Source of the DNA: Methylophilus sp. Leaf416
Lineage (GTDB): Bacteria; Pseudomonadota; Gammaproteobacteria; Burkholderiales; Methylophilaceae
NCBI RefSeq assembly: GCF_001424665.1
Contig: NZ_LMQS01000001.1
Span: 435,225 to 499,224 of the forward strand
Reading direction: 5' to 3'
DNA: 64,000 nt
Shown piece by piece: positions 29,437 to 64,000 of the stretch. Every line of letters starts with the position of its first letter. The stretch's first letter is position 1. Under the pieces are notes generated by a model. It ran no database searches and was not told the origin of the DNA. It was given only the letters and a program-made list of their open reading frames with translations. Made by a program: the position numbers and the translations under genes.

Positions 29437-30891
29437 CTATTCATCGGATGGCTGGAACACAACTTTGGCCAGCCCATCCCAATTACCGTCTGGCATCGGC
29501 TGGTAGGCTTCGACACTGCTGCGGTAAGCTGCGAACTGGCCTTCATACCAGAGCGGTATATACGGTAACTGTTCATGAATGCGGCGGGTGACTGCTGGCC
29601 AATCTTCATTTTTCAGCAAGGTATCCAGTTCAGCATCCCGGTAACCGCCACGGTTAAAGCCTTGGGGTGGCGCACTGCCTGAACCAAACACTTTGCTATA
29701 GATTTCTGGGGTTTTAATACCCACCCAGGTCAGCCCTGATAGCTGAAAATTACCTTTTTGCACATCGGCAAAGAAAGTCCCCCAATCCAGGCTTTTAATC
29801 TGTAAATCAATGCCTGCTGCCTGCATTTGTGCCTGCAAAATCGTGGCCAATCGCACGCGTTGGGGGTCGGTGCTGGTTTTGTATACCAGCGTTAGCGGTA
29901 GTTTGATGCCTGCTGATTGCAATAGCTGCCTGGCCAGTTCCGGCTGATAGCTGTAAGGCTGTAATGCAGGATTACCAGCATAATGTTCTGGCGGCAGGAT
30001 GGCATTCGCCTGCCGGCTGTGGCTGACCATGACCTTGTCAATAATTGCCTGCGTATCAATGGCATAGGCAATGGCACGCCTGACCCTGACATCGCGCAGG
30101 AATTCAGCCTGCACATTCAAGCCGAGATACGAATAGTTGGCACCAGCCACGGTTTGCACTGTGATATCTGGCTGTTTTTGCAGGTATTTCACCAGTTCAG
30201 GCGGCAAATCTCCCTGAATGAGGTCCGCTTCACCTCGCTTGAGTTTTAGCACACGAACATTTGGGTCCTTGACTTCATTGAAGCTGACTTTGAGACCGTC
30301 ACTCAGCCTGACTAGCTCAAGCTCGCTATCCCAGCAATTAAGTTTGAATGGGCCACTGCCAACAGGTGCATGACCAAAATCATGCCCCGCTGTAATCAGT
30401 TCAGCGGGTAAGATACCGATAATCAGCCTGGCCGGGAAATGGGGATCCGGGCGGCTAAGCTCAAAATCAATGGTGTGTGAATCCGGCGTGCTGATCTGTT
30501 TGATATGCTTGAATTCAGCAGTGTGTGGCGAGTTTTTGAGTTGCAACAAACTTTCATAAGTAGCTTTCACGTCGGCAGCGGTCAATGGTTTGCCATCATG
30601 AAAGACTGCCAATGGCCGCTGAAGCTGAAAGCGGTAATGCAGTGCATCCTGCATTTGCCATGAAGCTAACCCTGGCACCTCATGCGAAGCCGAATCAAAC
30701 TCAACCAGCCGCTGATAAAGCAGATGATTAACCCGCTCCGAAGCGGCATCTGTGGCATACCTTGGATCCAGGTTAACTGGCGCTTGTGCGATTGCAAACA
30801 CCAGCGCGCGCGGCTCAGTGTCTGACTGGCAGCCTGACAACACCAGCGCAATCGCTAATAAGCTATAGCCTGCAACTCTTCTCAACAACAT
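29437..30891 (-). CDS. Peptide ABC transporter substrate-binding lipoprotein (DppA/OppA-like)
   Basis: The 484-residue protein is a family 5 extracellular solute-binding protein. It has a lipobox (ALVLSGCQSD), the family start FAIAQAPVNLDPRYATD and hinge blocks such as FKLNCWDSELELVR and RAIAYAIDTQAI. The ATG at 30891 has GAAGG eight bases upstream; a TTG five codons earlier is weaker. It is separated from the permeases by the opposite-strand VIT gene but is the only candidate partner. Confidence 0.9.
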   Translation of the reverse strand: MLLRRVAGYSLLAIALVLSGCQSDTEPRALVFAIAQAPVNLDPRYATDAASERVNHLLYQRLVEFDSASHEVPGLASWQMQDALHYRFQLQRPLAVFHDGKPLTAADVKATYESLLQLKNSPHTAEFKHIKQISTPDSHTIDFELSRPDPHFPARLIIGILPAELITAGHDFGHAPVGSGPFKLNCWDSELELVRLSDGLKVSFNEVKDPNVRVLKLKRGEADLIQGDLPPELVKYLQKQPDITVQTVAGANYSYLGLNVQAEFLRDVRVRRAIAYAIDTQAIIDKVMVSHSRQANAILPPEHYAGNPALQPYSYQPELARQLLQSAGIKLPLTLVYKTSTDPQRVRLATILQAQMQAAGIDLQIKSLDWGTFFADVQKGNFQLSGLTWVGIKTPEIYSKVFGSGSAPPQGFNRGGYRDAELDTLLKNEDWPAVTRRIHEQLPYIPLWYEGQFAAYRSSVEAYQPMPDGNWDGLAKVVFQPSDE

Positions 30892-56779: not shown

Positions 56780-58876
56780 ATGCAATTTTTCCAGCAATTA
56801 AGTATCCAGTCCCGATTATTGTTATTAGTAATCGCGCCGATATTTACCTTATCCTGCTCCCTGCTGATGCTGGATTTCAAAGAGCAGCTGCAACGTGATG
56901 AAGAAAAACTGAGCCAGCATGCGCTGACCACTGCAAAATTTCTCTCAGCCGTTGTGCATAACCAAACAGACCTGCATGGTCGTCCCTATATCGAACGCCT
57001 GCTTAAGGCTAGTCAGCTAGATCGCGAACCTTATCTTTCCCTGATGATTGCGGATGCAGATAAACGCCCGCTGGCACAACTGGGTGCTTCGTTTACCGTA
57101 GGTGATTCATTACCTCGCCAGGACGCTATCGTGATGCAGCAAGCCACGCATGACGTCACTATGGTGAGAGTGTTTACCACTGAACCTAAGCATGCCTTGC
57201 TGGGTTTTGTGTTTGTTGCCATCGATAAAGCAGCTTTGATTGAAGATCACCGCCAGGCGTTTATCAGGAATGTAGGTTACATCACATTAGGGCTGATGCT
57301 GTGCTCAATACTGGTATATTGGGTCAGCCGCTCCATTAGCCAGCCCATTCGCGAGATGACAGCCGCACTGAAGCGCTTCGTGATAGGTAACCAGCACATC
57401 AGCCAGGTGAAAAATACCCTGCCTGAAATTAATTCGCTGCAAACAACGATCAATGAAATCTCGAGAGAGATGCAGCACGTCGAAGCTGACATGCGTCATC
57501 GTATCCAGGATGCCCAGGCACAATTACGTTACCAGGCACGACATGATGCATTAACTGGCCTGGTGAATCGCCAGGAATTGGAAAGACGCCTCCAACAAGC
57601 ATTGGAAGACGTTAAGCAGCACCGTGCAGATCATGTGTTTTGCTACATGGATCTCGACCAGTTCCGCGTCATTAATGACACCTGCGGCCATCCTGCCGGC
57701 GATGAAATGCTGAGACAGATCAGCATGATCCTGAGTCAACGCATACGCGCTGAAGACACATTTGCCAGGCTTGGCGGTGATGAATTCGGCTTACTGCTCA
57801 GCTATTGCCAGGTCGAAAAAGCCATTGAAATCGCCGCTCAATTGCGCCAAATGGTGGAATCATTCCGGTTTATGCATGAAGGCAGGTTGTTTCATACCGG
57901 CATCAGCATAGGTATCGTTGAAGTCACTGCTGACCTGAAAGACGTAGGCCAGATTACCCGGCATGCCGATGCCGCCTGTTATGTGGCTAAAGATAACGGA
58001 CGTAACCAGATACATTTATTCCATCCTGAAGATGATGTGTTACTCAAGCGACATGTGGAGATGGAATGGGTATTGCGCATCAATGAGGCAATAGAACACA
58101 ATGATTTCGTACTGTATTGCCAGGGGATTTTCCCCATGCAACAGAAAGAGTTGCCGCCGTTCTATGAAATTCTGATCCGCAAGCGTGATGAACATGGCGG
58201 CATTATCCCGCCTGCAGAATTTTTACCATCAGCTGAACGCTATCAACTGATGAACAAGATTGATCGCTGGGTTATTCAGCATGCTTTTATGGCTTTGCAG
58301 CCTTTATTCAAAACGCAATCCAGCAACAAACCATTTATCGTCAGCATCAATCTCTCGGGCATGTCTTTAGGCGACCCGACGCTGTTACCTTATATTAAAA
58401 ATTGTTTCAGCAATTACGAAGTTTCTCCCAGTCATGTTTGTTTTGAAGTCACTGAAACTTCAGCCATCATTAATATCGACAACACCATCAAACTGATTAA
58501 CGAATTGAAGCTGATGGGCACGCGCTTTATGCTGGACGACTTTGGCAGTGGCATGTCTTCCTTCAGCTACCTCAAACATTTGCCGGTCGATTTTCTGAAG
58601 ATGGATGGCGCTTATGTGAAAGATATCACCACCAATAAAGTGGATCTGGCGATGGCAAAAGCGATTCAAAGTGTCGCTGAGTCCATGGAAATTGAAACAA
58701 TAGCTGAATACGTTGAAGACCAGGCCACTCTAGACTGCCTGAACGAAATGGGCGTTGCCTATGCACAAGGTTTTTACCTCAACAGGCCGATTCCATTGAG
58801 TGAGGCACTTTCCCGCCATATCGCTACTTCGCAGCCAGCCAAAAAAACAGTCACCACGACTGATACCATTGCTTAG
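56780..58876 (+). CDS. GGDEF-EAL c-di-GMP turnover protein with periplasmic sensor and HAMP
   Basis: The 698-residue protein has two membrane helices (about residues 13-33 and 163-185) enclosing a 130-residue periplasmic sensor, a HAMP segment (SRSISQPIREMTAALKRF), a GGDEF domain (RLGGDEFGLL; inhibitory site RAED) and an EAL domain. The EAL motif reads EIL (YEILIRKR). The metal Glu is kept, as are NLSGMS, FEVTETS, LDDFGSG, LKMD and AQG. EGVE reads EYVE. It may act as a bifunctional enzyme or a phosphodiesterase. Confidence 0.88.
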   Translation: MQFFQQLSIQSRLLLLVIAPIFTLSCSLLMLDFKEQLQRDEEKLSQHALTTAKFLSAVVHNQTDLHGRPYIERLLKASQLDREPYLSLMIADADKRPLAQLGASFTVGDSLPRQDAIVMQQATHDVTMVRVFTTEPKHALLGFVFVAIDKAALIEDHRQAFIRNVGYITLGLMLCSILVYWVSRSISQPIREMTAALKRFVIGNQHISQVKNTLPEINSLQTTINEISREMQHVEADMRHRIQDAQAQLRYQARHDALTGLVNRQELERRLQQALEDVKQHRADHVFCYMDLDQFRVINDTCGHPAGDEMLRQISMILSQRIRAEDTFARLGGDEFGLLLSYCQVEKAIEIAAQLRQMVESFRFMHEGRLFHTGISIGIVEVTADLKDVGQITRHADAACYVAKDNGRNQIHLFHPEDDVLLKRHVEMEWVLRINEAIEHNDFVLYCQGIFPMQQKELPPFYEILIRKRDEHGGIIPPAEFLPSAERYQLMNKIDRWVIQHAFMALQPLFKTQSSNKPFIVSINLSGMSLGDPTLLPYIKNCFSNYEVSPSHVCFEVTETSAIINIDNTIKLINELKLMGTRFMLDDFGSGMSSFSYLKHLPVDFLKMDGAYVKDITTNKVDLAMAKAIQSVAESMEIETIAEYVEDQATLDCLNEMGVAYAQGFYLNRPIPLSEALSRHIATSQPAKKTVTTTDTIA

Positions 58877-59334: not shown

Positions 59335-59523
59335 TCAGGCACCTATCAGAAAAAGAATCAGCGACATGATTGCGACAGGTACAATGACCGCCACCGCACC
59401 AGCACCGGCTAGAAGAACCGCCGTAGAAGTGTTCATGCGACTCACCTTGAGAGAATGACCCTCATGCGTTGGTGGAATTTGAATCCGGTGAGTGTGCTGA
59501 CCTGATAAATGCGATTTCGCCAT
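59335..59523 (-). CDS. Small single-helix membrane protein, unknown
   Basis: The 62-residue peptide starts at 59523 with GTGGAG eight bases upstream. It has a polar His/Lys/Ser-rich first half (MAKSHLSGQHTHRIQIPPTH) and a helix TAVLLAGAGAVAVIVPVAIM at residues 33-58. No homologue is recognised. A longer frame to 59709 was rejected. It is the first gene of a two-gene unit with the secreted 132-residue protein, 56 bp downstream of a Crp-type palindrome. Confidence 0.7.
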   Translation of the reverse strand: MAKSHLSGQHTHRIQIPPTHEGHSLKVSRMNTSTAVLLAGAGAVAVIVPVAIMSLILFLIGA

Positions 59524-59578: not shown

Positions 59579-59594
59579 AGTCTGATAACGTACA
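59579..59594. promoter_or_regulatory. Candidate Crp/Fnr site A (10 of 12 conserved positions)
   Basis: The sequence AGTCTGATAACGTACA matches TGTNCGNTANCGNACA except for two positions in the left arm. Its centre is about 63 bp upstream of the ATG of the 62-residue peptide gene. TAATAC on the minus strand (59543-59548) could be a -10. Confidence 0.5.
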
Positions 59595-59741
59595 CAATCG
59601 ACACACATTCACAGCAACTCCCCAATCTCAAACTCGATTGATTATTGTTTGGATCATCAACTTTCCCGATGCAAACTTTAAGACGGTTTTTCAGATGGAA
59701 AATATTCAAGGCTGATTTACTGCTATTCTAAAACTGGAGTT

Positions 59742-60446
59742 TTAATGAGCAATCATTGTGGACTCATACGTTTGCTTATCCATCTCATAGCAATAACATG
59801 CTTTTTGCAGCAATGCCAGCGGGTTCAATATCTCAATGTGACCCCGGCTGTAATGTACGATTTTAGCTTGCTGTAATTTACTGGCGATATTGTTAATGCC
59901 TGCCCGGCGCACTCCCAACAAAGTCGCCAGTAGCTCCTGGGTGATGGTAAGCGTCGATGTCTGCAGCCGGTCACTATAGGCGAGCAGCAATCGAGCCAGC
60001 CGTTGCTGTACGTTATGCAGGCCATTACACACAGCAGCCTGCGCATGTTGCGCATTCAATACTGCAATATACCGATCCAGACAGATACCGAAGTTTTTGT
60101 TGCTCAACTTGAGGGCATACAAATGCTCTACAGAAATGCGCAGTGCCGTCCCTTGCGCAAGCACGATGGCAGAATACGGCACAAACTGAACACCAAGTGC
60201 TGGCGCGATATCTAACATTCCCTCATTACCAATCAAGGCAATAGCTAATGGCTTATCCAGCGCGTGCTGCAGGATTAAAGCAATGACTCCGCAAGTTGGA
60301 AAATAGATGTATTCAATGGCAATGCCAGGTGCATTGAGTTGTTGTCCTAACGTAAGCTCTACCCATACTCCATACTTTACCAATCGATTTTGGCAACGAC
60401 GATCTAGTTGGTTTATTAGCCTGTTCCAAGTAAGCGCGTGTTCCAT
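59742..60446 (-). CDS. Crp/Fnr family transcriptional regulator 1
   Basis: The 234-residue protein has a cyclic-nucleotide-binding-type jelly roll (LGQQLNAPGIAIEYIYFPTCGVIAL, about residues 33-57, VGNEGMLDI-like loop IGNEGMLDIAPAL) and a C-terminal winged helix (TITQELLATLLGVRRAGI). No Fnr-type N-terminal Cys cluster is present, so it is not an oxygen-sensing Fnr. The ligand is unknown. It is paralogous to the other regulator 230 bases upstream. No ribosome site precedes the ATG; a palindrome lies only 34 bp upstream, so autoregulation is likely. Confidence 0.9.
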   Translation of the reverse strand: MEHALTWNRLINQLDRRCQNRLVKYGVWVELTLGQQLNAPGIAIEYIYFPTCGVIALILQHALDKPLAIALIGNEGMLDIAPALGVQFVPYSAIVLAQGTALRISVEHLYALKLSNKNFGICLDRYIAVLNAQHAQAAVCNGLHNVQQRLARLLLAYSDRLQTSTLTITQELLATLLGVRRAGINNIASKLQQAKIVHYSRGHIEILNPLALLQKACYCYEMDKQTYESTMIAH

Positions 60447-60479
60447 TCAACAAAAATAACATCTATGCAATGTTACGTA

Positions 60480-60495
60480 TGTTCGTTTACACACA
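60480..60495. promoter_or_regulatory. Candidate Crp/Fnr site B (10 of 12 conserved positions)
   Basis: TGTTCGTTTACACACA has two mismatches from the palindrome TGTNCGNTANCGNACA. Its centre is 41 bp upstream of the ATG of regulator 1, so a class II promoter would start transcription at or close to the ATG itself. Confidence 0.5.
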
Positions 60496-60673
60496 TGCGG
60501 AGCATCCCTTCCCGCTTTAGGCATGCTTATCTGTTAGACAGTCACGGCATCTTTAAAGAAAGATGGCCTTAATGAAACCTTACCTAGCTTAGGTTATGAG
60601 GCTTGTATCGGGCTATTACTGGCGCGCATATGTTGCGCAGCAAATATATAAGGAGATGGCAGCTTCAATCAAG

Positions 60674-61423
60674 CTAAATGGTATCGGCTTTTTGATGATG
60701 ATTTCTTTGCATATCCGGGAGTAATCGATCAAATTCTGTTTTAACTACCTGATAGCACTCGCATACTGCCTTTTCCAGCTTGGGTCGGTCCAGTACGCGT
60801 ATGTGCCCACGTGAATACTCTATCATGCCGGCACGTTGCAACCTGCCCGCTGCCTCAGTCACCCCTTCACGTCGTACACCCAGCATATTGGCCATTAACT
60901 CCTGTGTCATATGAAGATCATTTGCAGATAACCTGTCCAGGCTCAGTAATAACCAACGACACAATTGCTGTTCAATCGAATGATGGCGGTTACATACGGC
61001 AGTTTGGGTCATTTGAGTAATTAAGGCCTGTGTGTAGCGCAATAGTAAATGCATCATCGCGCCTCCACGGCTAAATTCCAGTTTTAACAGGCTGGCCCGC
61101 ATTCTATAACCATGGCCTGAACTTTGTACCACAGCACGGCTGGGCGTCGTTTCACCACCCATAAACAATGAAATCCCTAATACCCCTTCATTACCTACGA
61201 CTGCAATTTCCGCGGATGCCCCGCTTTCCAGGACATACAATAAAGACACGATAGAAGTAGTGGGAAAATACACATGCTGGAGCTGACCACCAGACTCGTA
61301 CAGCGTATGCCCCAAGGGCATTGCGACATACTCAAGCATGGGTTCAATTCGGAGATAATCGGATTCTGGCAGCGCCTTCAACAAGTGGTTTTGTTGTGGT
61401 TGTGGAGTGGGCTTGCTAACCAT
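60674..61423 (-). CDS. Crp/Fnr family transcriptional regulator 2
   Basis: The 249-residue protein has a jelly-roll sensor (LGHTLYESGGQLQHVYFPTTSIVSLL, VVGNEGVLGISLFMGGE) and winged helix (HMTQELMANMLGVRREGVTEA, then GMIEYSRGHIRVLD). It is the paralogue of regulator 1: the recognition regions read LGVRRAGI and LGVRREGV. No Fnr cysteines. Its own promoter carries a perfect copy of the palindrome, so autoregulation is expected. Confidence 0.92.
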   Translation of the reverse strand: MVSKPTPQPQQNHLLKALPESDYLRIEPMLEYVAMPLGHTLYESGGQLQHVYFPTTSIVSLLYVLESGASAEIAVVGNEGVLGISLFMGGETTPSRAVVQSSGHGYRMRASLLKLEFSRGGAMMHLLLRYTQALITQMTQTAVCNRHHSIEQQLCRWLLLSLDRLSANDLHMTQELMANMLGVRREGVTEAAGRLQRAGMIEYSRGHIRVLDRPKLEKAVCECYQVVKTEFDRLLPDMQRNHHQKADTI

Positions 61424-61448
61424 ATTCCGCCTTTAGCTGAAAGTTACA

Positions 61449-61454
61449 TGATAG
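61449..61454 (-). promoter_or_regulatory. Candidate -10 element of regulator 2 promoter
   Basis: TATCAT on the minus strand differs from TATAAT at one base. With a start near 61442 the perfect palindrome at 61475-61490 would be centred close to -41, the class II position of Crp-type activators. Confidence 0.5.
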
Positions 61455-61474
61455 TACACCTTACTTATCTCTTA

Positions 61475-61490
61475 TGTGCGATAGCGTACA
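61475..61490. promoter_or_regulatory. Candidate Crp/Fnr site C (perfect)
   Basis: TGTGCGATAGCGTACA fits all twelve fixed positions of TGTNCGNTANCGNACA. Its centre is 59 bp upstream of the regulator 2 start codon. Confidence 0.7.
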
Positions 61491-61635
61491 TTAGGATTCT
61501 TGCATGATGCACAGTGTTAACCTGCCCAAAGCTAACTACATAGATAGTGATGGCGGGATTCACACTTTGACCGAGTCTATCCCAAGCAACATTCTGGTTT
61601 AACTCACGCGCAATCCACACGGAAAAAAGTATAAA

Positions 61636-61658
61636 AAAGCGCCATGCGAATGGCGCTT
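61636..61658 (-). terminator. Terminator after the PEP-CTERM gene C
   Basis: AAAGCGCCAT pairs with ATGGCGCTTT across a 4-base loop. The minus strand continues with a T-run (TTTTTTATAC). It lies 40 bases past the stop codon of PEP-CTERM gene C. Confidence 0.85.
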
Positions 61659-61698
61659 TCTATTTATTATCAAGTCTCAATCCAATGTGATTTCCTTA

Positions 61699-62352
61699 CT
61701 AACCTTTCCTGGTGCGACGTGCACCAATCAAGCCAATCAACCCCAGTCCTGAAAAAACCATCAGGCCGGTTGAAGCTTCCGGTACGGCAGCAGCTGAAGC
61801 AAACCCTTCAGCATTTGAACCGATCCCATTTGATATCACAAAGTTTCCTGATTGATAGTTTGTCGCATTGGTACGGATAATCTGGATGTAACTGGTTGAC
61901 CCAGGTTGAATATCGCCCGTCACCACCGGTACGAAATTAAATCCGATGACACCGGCGTTTGAGCGGTCTGCGTTATCAGAAAACTCACTGCCATTTGCGA
62001 AGATCCCGAAACCAGTTCCAGTCTGATACACATCAACCACACTCGCGCCCAGGCTACTAAAATCAAATCCCGCAAAGCGGTGAACGCCATTCTGGGAGCT
62101 GTCTTCATTGGTGAACTGATAGTAAAAGTCAAAACCTGTGGCGGTTTGATATACGGCAGAACGGGCGGTACCGTTGTAACTGATATTACTGATGGCCGTG
62201 ATAGCACTATCAATCAAAGTGCCACCAAAACCGCTGGCTACGATATCTACGCTAGTGGCCGAAGAATTCGACACGAGTACGGTGGCATGGGCACTACTCA
62301 TTACACCTGCCATAGCAAGGGTAAGGACTAAAATTTTCATTTTCAAATGCAT
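61699..62352 (-). CDS. PEP-CTERM sorting-domain protein C
   Basis: The 217-residue protein has a signal peptide (MHLKMKILVLTLAMAGVMSSAHA) and ends VPEASTGLMVFSGLGLIG with an ARRTRKG tail, the PEP-CTERM signal. The first ATG is chosen because GGAG lies six bases upstream. The middle (SYNGTARSAVYQTATGFDFYYQFTNED in two blocks) is not close to PEP-CTERM genes A and B. It has two candidate Crp-type sites upstream and a terminator downstream. Confidence 0.86.
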   Translation of the reverse strand: MHLKMKILVLTLAMAGVMSSAHATVLVSNSSATSVDIVASGFGGTLIDSAITAISNISYNGTARSAVYQTATGFDFYYQFTNEDSSQNGVHRFAGFDFSSLGASVVDVYQTGTGFGIFANGSEFSDNADRSNAGVIGFNFVPVVTGDIQPGSTSYIQIIRTNATNYQSGNFVISNGIGSNAEGFASAAAVPEASTGLMVFSGLGLIGLIGARRTRKG

Positions 62353-62441
62353 GTCGAGCTCCTTAAGGGGAAGGGATAGCGCAATAAATCAGGTGAACTC
62401 TTGCGCTGATATGCATCATTACTGATTGCAAACGTGAGTTC

Positions 62442-62457
62442 TGTACGCTAGAACACT
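62442..62457. promoter_or_regulatory. Candidate Crp/Fnr site D (9-10 of 12 conserved positions)
   Basis: TGTACGCTAGAACACT keeps the left half site of TGTNCGNTANCGNACA. Its centre is 97 bp upstream of the PEP-CTERM C start; a minus-strand TAATGAT near 62415-62421 would then place it at about -41. Confidence 0.45.
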
Positions 62458-62601
62458 TATCAAAAAAGAGTTCTGGCGTTGGTTGTTTTTTGCCTAATTC
62501 AGTGCAAAAGCAATGAAGACCACCTGGATAAAATTGCCGCTTGAGCTTGGATAAACAGGGTTTATTTTGGGTGATGTTGAGTGATCTTATGCCTGCCCCT
62601 G

Positions 62602-62617
62602 TGTTCGATAGCGTACA
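62602..62617. promoter_or_regulatory. Candidate Crp/Fnr site E (perfect)
   Basis: TGTTCGATAGCGTACA fits all twelve fixed positions. It is 250 bp upstream of the PEP-CTERM C gene, too far for direct class II activation of that gene, and 41 bp before a possible plus-strand start near 62651. Confidence 0.65.
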
Positions 62618-62787
62618 GACACTAATTCAATAACATCTCAATATATGACTTATAAATGTGCTGCAGTTGCCAGAAGATAAATCAATTGCAGAGGACTTTT
62701 AGAAACGTAACTTGTGCTTGTTTAACAGGTGATGAGTTTGTACCACTTAACTCTTTCCCTATGGCTATCCCCTCCATAAGAAAAGGG

Positions 62788-62813
62788 AAATCCCGCTTCG
62801 GCGGGATTTTTTT
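62788..62813. terminator. Terminator between the GH1-like gene and the intergenic region
   Basis: AAATCCCGC pairs with GCGGGATTT around loop TTCG, with a clean run of seven T on the plus strand. On the minus strand the hairpin is followed by CCCTTTTC, a weaker T-run. It lies 75 bases past the GH1-like stop codon and may serve a plus-strand transcript as well. Confidence 0.8.
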
Positions 62814-62887
62814 GCTAGATACGCATTGAAAGATTACAAACCTGTAATGCGCGAAACCGCACACAGGAGAGAAGCCAGTCCAGGTTG

Positions 62888-64000
62888 TTAATTGATAATA
62901 GTGGCAATGACTGGCTTGATTTGCCAATCATGCAAAATGTCTGCCAGTGGCGTATACACTGGTCTTTGACCGGTATTATCAGCATAGCCTAACAACCCTG
63001 CCGGGCAATGCCGGTTATCATCCCAACCTGGATAATCCACCACAGGATAGAGACAGACGCCATCAATCGGAATTCCGGATATTTGCGCTTTAGCCACTTC
63101 ATTAAAAATATAGCTTGCCCAGGCTGCGCGGTTTTCTCCTTCAGCACCCGTTTCCGCCACCAGCATGCGCCGTCCATAGCGCAAATATACTTCAGCCAGC
63201 ATGTCGTACAAAGGCCGGTAAGCCGGCGACGTGGGAGACACTTTTTCACCTCCGATATACCACTGGTTATTGCTGTAATAATTCAGACCGACAATATCCA
63301 GATATTTAGGATCGCCGCCTAAGCCAGGCCATGCTTCACCAATCAGCATATCTAACGCTTCAAATTGTGCTTGTCGATAAGCTTCAGCCTGGCCTTTATC
63401 TCTTGGTCGGTCAATTCTGGGTAATACGTTAATCAACGGCTCAGCGGTGATGAAACGTGCACGAGGGTCTACCTCCCGTATAGCCTCAATCGCAGCGATG
63501 GTAGCACGCACGAGTTGATGTTTCAGCTCCAGTGCGCGTCCCTTCGCTAAAGGATTAAAAAAGGCGACTTCTCCACCGGCCCAGGCCCAAAACGACATTT
63601 CGTTGACTGGGCAAAATAGCGGGATAGTATCTGTTTCATTTTTAATCACGCGTGCCACTTCAGAAGCAAACCGCGAAAACCGTTTCACAAATTCTGGACG
63701 CCAGATGTTCAATCCATCCGGGATGCCATAGTGACTCAGATCCCAGATAACCTGAACTTGAGCGTGATGGGCAGCCTTCACCAGTGGTAAAAAACTTGAC
63801 CAATCATATTCACCTGGCCGGGTTTCAATCAAATGCCATCGCAGGCCATCACGTATGGTTTTAAGCCCATGCGCACTAAGTGCCATGTAATCTTCAAGTG
63901 CCCACCTGTCATGCCTGGTAGAAGCAATCAGGTCCAGCCGTCGCCCATCTCGTCTACGATGTGTCGAACATTCAAACCCGCCCATAAAAAAACTGTTGAA
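62888..64000 (-). CDS. Glycoside hydrolase family 1-like protein (5' end beyond window)
   Basis: The frame stays open through the right edge (reads FNSFF before the first Met), so the start is probably outside. The visible part has the start GGFECSTHRRRDGRRLDL, the acid/base Glu in CPVNEMSFWAWAGG, and the nucleophile Glu in LVAETGAEGENRA. It fits GH1-like beta-glycosidases found in exopolysaccharide or sugar-nucleotide gene sets, and may act on cell-surface glycans. The substrate is unknown. Confidence 0.85.
   Translation of the reverse strand, partial: FNSFFMGGFECSTHRRRDGRRLDLIASTRHDRWALEDYMALSAHGLKTIRDGLRWHLIETRPGEYDWSSFLPLVKAAHHAQVQVIWDLSHYGIPDGLNIWRPEFVKRFSRFASEVARVIKNETDTIPLFCPVNEMSFWAWAGGEVAFFNPLAKGRALELKHQLVRATIAAIEAIREVDPRARFITAEPLINVLPRIDRPRDKGQAEAYRQAQFEALDMLIGEAWPGLGGDPKYLDIVGLNYYSNNQWYIGGEKVSPTSPAYRPLYDMLAEVYLRYGRRMLVAETGAEGENRAAWASYIFNEVAKAQISGIPIDGVCLYPVVDYPGWDDNRHCPAGLLGYADNTGQRPVYTPLADILHDWQIKPVIATIIN

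Follow-up and report, generated by a model that had tools for sequence, protein, structure and literature searches.

Which protein acts on a 16-base-pair (bp) palindrome that recurs between the genes of one locus in Methylophilus sp. Leaf416, and with what effect? The stretch analysed here (the window; 64,000 nucleotides (nt), C1 435225-499224 of a 2.94-Mb genome) carries this locus at 58.9-62.4 kb, with all genes on the minus strand: a gene of 132 amino acids (aa), a 62-aa gene, two Crp/Fnr-type regulators, termed here regulator 1 (234 aa, 59742..60446) and regulator 2 (249 aa, 60674..61423), and a PEP-CTERM protein gene. A sequence-only reading had proposed a Crp/Fnr-type regulatory site for the locus. 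Our comparisons support a real regulatory site of this type, and thus that reading in outline: copies are conserved before regulator 2, regulator 1 and the PEP-CTERM gene, although the target assigned to the copy at 62602 probably does not stand. The comparisons add a predicted link of the site to one regulator clade, a class II geometry and a probable stress regulon. We consider it likely that regulator 2 is a self-activating class II switch of the Crp/Fnr type, with regulator 1 and the PEP-CTERM gene as its further targets.

The perfect palindrome, TGTNCGNTANCGNACA, occurs at 61475-61490 and 62602-62617, as the sequence-only reading had stated, and nowhere else in the genome. A window scan with a limit of two mismatches also recovered the copies reported with two mismatches each at 59579-59594 and 60480-60495, together with further two-mismatch places at 30785 and 62848. 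The copy at 62442-62457, TGTACGCTAGAACACT, had been credited with two mismatches and has three. Each of the five sites named in that reading falls between called genes, as it had claimed. With six places at up to two mismatches against 2.13 expected, and 3 of 100 shuffles reaching six, the bare palindrome count in the window is only mildly unusual.

The link between motif and regulator emerges across relatives. Among 61 genomes (60 relatives and the organism's own), the perfect motif was present in 20 and a strong regulator 2 relative (E<1e-60) in 20, with both in 18 (p 2.5e-11; this and the following co-occurrence p values ignore kinship among genomes). Within the genus, the motif was found in 7/7 genomes with the regulator and in 1/15 without it (p 4.7e-5). 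In both motif-only genomes of the 61 (G015 and G026), the matches fall within called open reading frames (ORFs). A second set comprised 200 genomes of the same order, 28 of them common to both sets, with the regulator called at E<=1e-40 and the motif defined as the perfect palindrome plus an A at position 17. Here the motif occurred in 40 genomes, the regulator in 64 and both in 37 (p=1.7e-19), the motif standing without the regulator in G089, G212 and G224. When the count was confined to the 172 genomes outside the first set, 32 of the 35 motif genomes had the regulator (p 2.7e-16). The reversed pattern was found in 7 of the 200 genomes, 3 of them with the regulator (p 0.68).

The position of the site points the same way. 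Perfect copies lie 54-104 bp upstream of regulator 2 orthologues in eight loci (L062, L063, L064, L065, L066, L069, L071 and L077); among the other orthologues of the 60 relatives, some have a copy with one or two mismatches and some have no site. We scanned 300 bp upstream of the regulator match in 80 named loci, where the best copy had no mismatch in 11, one in 25, two in 12, three in 6 and at least four in 26. A copy with at most one mismatch was thus present in 36/80 loci, against a mean of 0.125 for 200 permuted palindromes, whose maximum of 8 came from a near-variant. In 78 of the named loci (614,517 bp), 90 places matched at up to one mismatch against 1 for the reversed pattern; 36 of the 90 fall inside called ORFs, in gene calls that are crude, with uncertain starts and some ORFs that may be over-extended. 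Taken together, the palindrome is very probably the binding site of regulator 2, as predicted from these associations.

Both regulators contain a Crp-type helix-turn-helix (PF13545, HTH_Crp_2; 48.7 bits in regulator 1 and 59.2 bits in regulator 2, cut-off 27) and are 36% identical; it is regulator 2 that is tied to the motif by co-occurrence. The cNMP_binding domain (PF00027) reaches 24.3 bits in regulator 2, below the cut-off of 27.5, and has no match in regulator 1. An AF2 model of regulator 2 (pLDDT 84.5) has a CRP fold with an effector-like domain and a long dimer helix (Foldseek E 2e-12). The recognition helices had been described as near-identical. LGVRR is indeed common to both, but they differ at the position that we matched by eye to what we take to be E181 of CRP, with E in regulator 2 and A in regulator 1. 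This bears on whether the site belongs to regulator 1, or equally to both regulators, which would then cross-regulate, a possibility that deserves some weight although we think it unlikely. The shared LGVRR and the presence of the site before both genes speak for it. Apart from the helix difference, genomes G031 and G049 each have one regulator 2 match and no second at E<=0.001, yet both retain a perfect site, so the sharing of sites put forward earlier is unproven.

Among 128 sequences of both regulator types, C144, H148 and C221 are conserved in 127 and C223 in all 128. One alignment, from a shortened list, covered 47 of the 80 named loci and the window (the entries of L201 and L216 contained a stop). 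According to the AF2 model, C144 of regulator 2 ends helix 121-147, and C221 and C223 stand at the start of helix 222-234. These four residues perhaps sense a signal, and might do so through a metal, a cluster or redox chemistry. Three paralogues (G022:C1:602559, G028:C28:14217 and G060:C14:101344) have an in-frame stop in the searched frame, which is perhaps a normal end or the mark of decayed copies.

We compared the site and regulator 2 with known systems. Regulator 2 resembles CRP in fold (best Foldseek match 3d0s, TM 0.70/0.77), and its site shares the 16-bp length and the TGT...ACA arms. The earlier claim that the bases are unlike the classical Crp site therefore holds for the inner positions, where the consensus of 47 site-gene pairs has CG, not GA (CG...CG against GA...TC in CRP), so that TGTGA-N6-TCACA is not matched; it does not hold for the outer arms and the length. 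Regulator 2 further differs from CRP in its sub-threshold cNMP_binding match and in an identity of 13-18% to CRP chains. FNR is similar in its Crp/Fnr fold (8qto, TM 0.72/0.76) and its class II promoters. Unlike FNR, regulator 2 has no cysteine before C144 and hence no N-terminal ligands for an iron-sulphur cluster, and TTGAT-N4-ATCAA is unmatched. In the parts of the source that describe RebR of Azorhizobium, a member of a novel Crp-Fnr subfamily, the palindrome obtained by SELEX (systematic evolution of ligands by exponential enrichment) is GT(A/G)(A/C)C-N4-G(T/G)(T/C)AC (PMC5527310). It too has GT...AC arms, over 14 positions, but its fifth position requires a C (PMC5527310). Our site has G there and does not fit GTRMC-N4-GKYAC, judged by consensus letters only. 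Regulator 2 matches NtcA structures and, weakly, the NCBIfam NtcA model, at 27.1 bits far under the cut-off of 244.95. A literature search among open-licence papers returned none that we recognised as treating the palindrome motif. A LexA-type reading (CTGT-N8-ACAG) was rejected because the spacing here is 10.

How the site acts is suggested by its distance from the promoter. From the table of promoter pairs, 16 fetched loci were removed by hand, each lacking a gene with at least two relatives within 140 bp of the site, and genes with fewer than two relatives were also excluded. Four bases stand out in the 47 remaining pairs, namely T at -2 (33 pairs), A at 17 (41), A at 38 (32) and T at 42 (30). 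After removal of near-duplicates, A and T at hexamer positions 2 and 6 were found at offset 37 in 26/44 pairs, against 10 for the runner-up spacing. If this hexamer is read as the -10 box, the palindrome is centred at -41.5. A fixed -10 spacing with a centre at -41.5 is the arrangement of class II activators, also seen at class II promoters of CRP, and we infer a class II activator promoter in which activation itself is predicted. Offset 37 was again the best, though less marked, in a second set of 34 new loci (L177 and L246 were left out as members of the first set), at 7/34 and with a mean match to TATAAT of 2.21/6. At the promoter of regulator 2 in the window, the perfect site (61475..61490, minus strand), which is conserved upstream of orthologues, is followed after 21 nt by the predicted -10 box TATCAT (61448..61453, minus; 5/6 to TATAAT), with a predicted start at 61441.

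We then applied a weight matrix built from 41 promoters, all from other genomes, to the 64 kb. Its 12 top entries, six sites on both strands, all lie within 59579-62863. The scores were 30.1 bits at 62602 (plus), 29.4 at 61475 (minus), 18.9 at 60480 (minus), 17.8 at 62442 (minus), 13.9 at 62848 (plus) and 11.5 at 59579 (minus), with 9.9 at the top place elsewhere in the window. Maxima in 12 simulated windows were 8.7-14.4, plus one of 19.4, and a matrix for the site alone put 14032 (11.7) level with 59579. By these scores the sites at 61475 and 62602 can be taken as secure; those at 60480 and 62442 draw on their conservation as well, and those at 59579 and 62848 are not established.

The site of the regulator 1 promoter (60480..60495, minus) precedes a predicted -10 box TATTTT (60453..60458, minus) whose predicted start, 60446, is the A of the start codon. 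Its distance is conserved: the site stands 33-34 bp before the start in 7/7 loci (window included) with a second regulator nearer to regulator 1 than to regulator 2, and among five more divergent second regulators it does so in L075 only. The window and loci L062, L063, L064, L065 and L068 share the order site, 21 nt, TA-initial hexamer, 6 nt and ATG, and the spacing is one base longer in L070, L075 and L186, placing the start codon at the predicted +1 or +2. By eye, we saw no clear Shine-Dalgarno stretch before most genes of the regulator 1 type; L063 has AAGG. With its start codon on the predicted +1, the mRNA of regulator 1 is probably leaderless.

The PEP-CTERM gene (217 aa, 61699..62352, minus; PF07589 21.4 bits, cut-off 20.7) has orthologues in L062-L065 that are 61-67% identical, L064 and L065 being near-copies of each other. 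Its probable promoter site is 62442..62457 (minus), with a -10 box AATGAT at 62415-62420 and a predicted start near 62408. All four orthologues have a comparable site, with two mismatches and 81-94 bp upstream, whose -10 hexamer also has its A and T in place. Farther from the gene there is a second, distal site, at 159-187 bp in L063-L065 (one mismatch) and at 201 bp in L062 (two mismatches). On its other side, L063-L065 have a divergent gene encoding a protein of 184-191 aa, behind which L064 has a BON gene and a CsbD-like gene (CsbD below cut-off). The -10 box on the divergent side reads GATTAT in L064 and L065, and CAACAT in L063.

These comparisons suggest, for the perfect copy at 62602..62617, one of two perfect composite matches (palindrome plus -10) in the own genome, a different role from the one it had been given. 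The sequence-only reading placed it upstream of the PEP-CTERM gene as its target. Direct control of that gene by this site, alone or with 62442, is in our view doubtful: the site is perfect, and the PEP-CTERM gene, whose start is 249 bp away, is the nearest called gene starting beside it, but the -10 hexamer on that side is poor (TCAACA, 2/6), the matrix gives 22.2 bits on the minus strand against 30.1 on the plus, and 62442, nearer to the gene, has the conserved counterparts. The copy is a better fit to a predicted plus-strand promoter facing away from the PEP-CTERM gene, with CAATAT at 62639-62644 (3/6, A and T in place) and a predicted start at 62651. No relative of the divergent protein was found in the own genome (best E 0.14), whose two CsbD genes are located elsewhere, so 62602 looks like a promoter left behind.

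Such a promoter might produce a short transcript (62651..62815, plus), for which the indications are weak. About 165 nt past the predicted start is the end of a hairpin with a T run, and the fold is not unusual (z -1.50; 18/200 shuffles equally good). The terminator scan assigns the hairpin to the minus strand alone; its plus-strand reading rests on a T run seen by eye, and it could equally well act for the minus-strand gene whose end is at 62888. Membership in a known RNA family found no support (Rfam istR 27.9 and isrB 24.7 bits, below gathering scores of 45 and 35), nor did conservation in the genus, where just short terminator-like pieces match in 3 others of 22 genomes, the own included.

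From the computed motif, its association with the regulator type, its spacing and its conservation, we propose a mechanism whose predicted parts are that regulator 2 binds directly and activates, that translation is leaderless and that a signal is sensed. Regulator 2, of an uncharacterised Crp/Fnr clade, would bind TNTGTNCGNTANCGNACANA as a dimer. The palindrome would occupy the -35 place, with the -10 box 21 nt downstream. On this class II arrangement, regulator 2 would activate its own gene through 61475, in positive feedback, its paralogue regulator 1 through 60480, from a leaderless mRNA, and the PEP-CTERM surface-protein gene through 62442. The site at 62602 would correspond to the congeners' distal site before the divergent operon (184-191-aa, BON and CsbD-like genes), absent here, and would be an orphaned promoter that may still produce a short RNA. 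A repressor acting in a negative loop is improbable: a site at -41.5 overlaps the -35 place and could block it, but the fixed -10 spacing is the known class II activator arrangement. A simple promoter scan paired no -35 element with the predicted -10 boxes, and no search aimed at -35 elements was made. That the palindrome is bound by some other factor inherited along with regulator 2 seems very improbable, given that many genera have the site before the gene of the regulator itself and that its TGT...ACA arms and length are Crp-like, even though the whole case is one of association.

Several results weigh against regulator 2 as a self-activating class II switch with these targets. In the own genome, allowing up to one mismatch, the palindrome matches 10 places and its reversed control 13; the composite, counted on both strands against a reversed motif, gave 8 rows against 9 at up to two mismatches and 75 against 109 at up to three. 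A genome-wide regulon in this organism is not supported, none of these counts exceeding its control, and with counts so weak the case cannot rest on the own genome alone. The perfect motif is absent from 27/64 regulator genomes of the 200, and neither G035 orthologue has a site better than four to five mismatches. In the second promoter set, A and T fall exactly at the expected -10 positions in just 7/34 loci, with other good -10 matches scattered over offsets 34-38. The second regulators of L066, L067, L069 and L076 lack the site at 33-34 bp, and the score of 59579 falls inside the range of the simulated windows. Composite hits exceed the control in three genomes without a strong full-length regulator match (G046, 15 against 0; G048, 8 against 0; G050, 6 against 1). 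The disregard of kinship in the p values adds to these points.

The regulon had been called small. This fits the own genome, where six of the 8 composite rows at up to two mismatches are sites of the locus (two of these sites on both strands), the others being C4:373056 and C1:113004, the latter inside a called ORF that, with the frame read by eye, we take to resemble the acpP coding start. It does not fit six relatives with 21-47 composite hits against 2-13 in the control (G016 39/9, G028 47/7, G029 25/5, G005 24/13, G043 22/3 and G041 21/2). Among the first 25 of 41 Pfam families found in 51 of 54 listed site-downstream proteins were BON (7), GGDEF, DUF3309 and CsbD (4 each), fatty acid desaturase, PEP-CTERM, EF-hand and ISL3 transposase (3 each), PAS (3 for each of three models), and fatty acid hydroxylase, PRC-barrel and EAL (2 each). 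Next to regulator 2 in L064 is a gene for cyclopropane fatty acid synthase. The site-associated genes of relatives suggest a probable envelope-stress programme. One cluster, G016:C17 226906-249600 (L067 and L068), has six regulator 2 matches in 23 kb and many palindromes, along with BON, DUF883, PRC-barrel and holin-like genes, and is a dense stress island.

Some observations concern the margins of the locus and look-alikes of the site. The two-mismatch site at 59579..59594 (minus) lies 55 bp before the small membrane-protein gene of 62 aa (59335..59523, minus), with a -10 hexamer AACACT (3/6); that gene had no Pfam match at E<=0.001 and no relative within the fetched loci. At 62848-62863 the copy TGCGCGAAACCGCACA lies just beyond where the minus-strand gene 62888-63985 ends, has a good -10 on neither strand and is perhaps a relic; the gene has a weak match to glycosyl hydrolase family 1, below cut-off (20.1 against 22.6 bits). 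A GGDEF-EAL gene (56780-58876) adjoins the locus, with no site of up to two mismatches before it. The look-alike TGTTCGAT[AG]TCGGACAT occurs in three genomes (L103 5005, L083 4931, L100 4731) inside a 78-79-aa ORF that presumably reads as the acpP start, and is, judged by that context, a coding false positive.

A wider scenario, which we regard as speculative and rather unlikely as a whole, is that an undescribed Crp/Fnr clade widespread in Burkholderiales and their neighbours senses redox or metal through an almost invariant Cys-x3-His...Cys-x-Cys set, switches itself on from a class II site in an all-or-none manner and runs an envelope-stress and surface programme with a leaderless paralogue. 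In this organism the programme would have shrunk to a single locus, where an orphaned promoter now makes a small RNA. A large group of unassigned Crp/Fnr regulators gains a predicted DNA site, a promoter geometry and probable targets, which make their regulons predictable and testable in many genomes. Four conserved residues are named as a candidate sensor, and a regulator gene predicted to be leaderless and activator-driven is offered. The PEP-CTERM surface protein is linked to a probable stress switch, which, if self-activation is true, may be capable of two-state behaviour.

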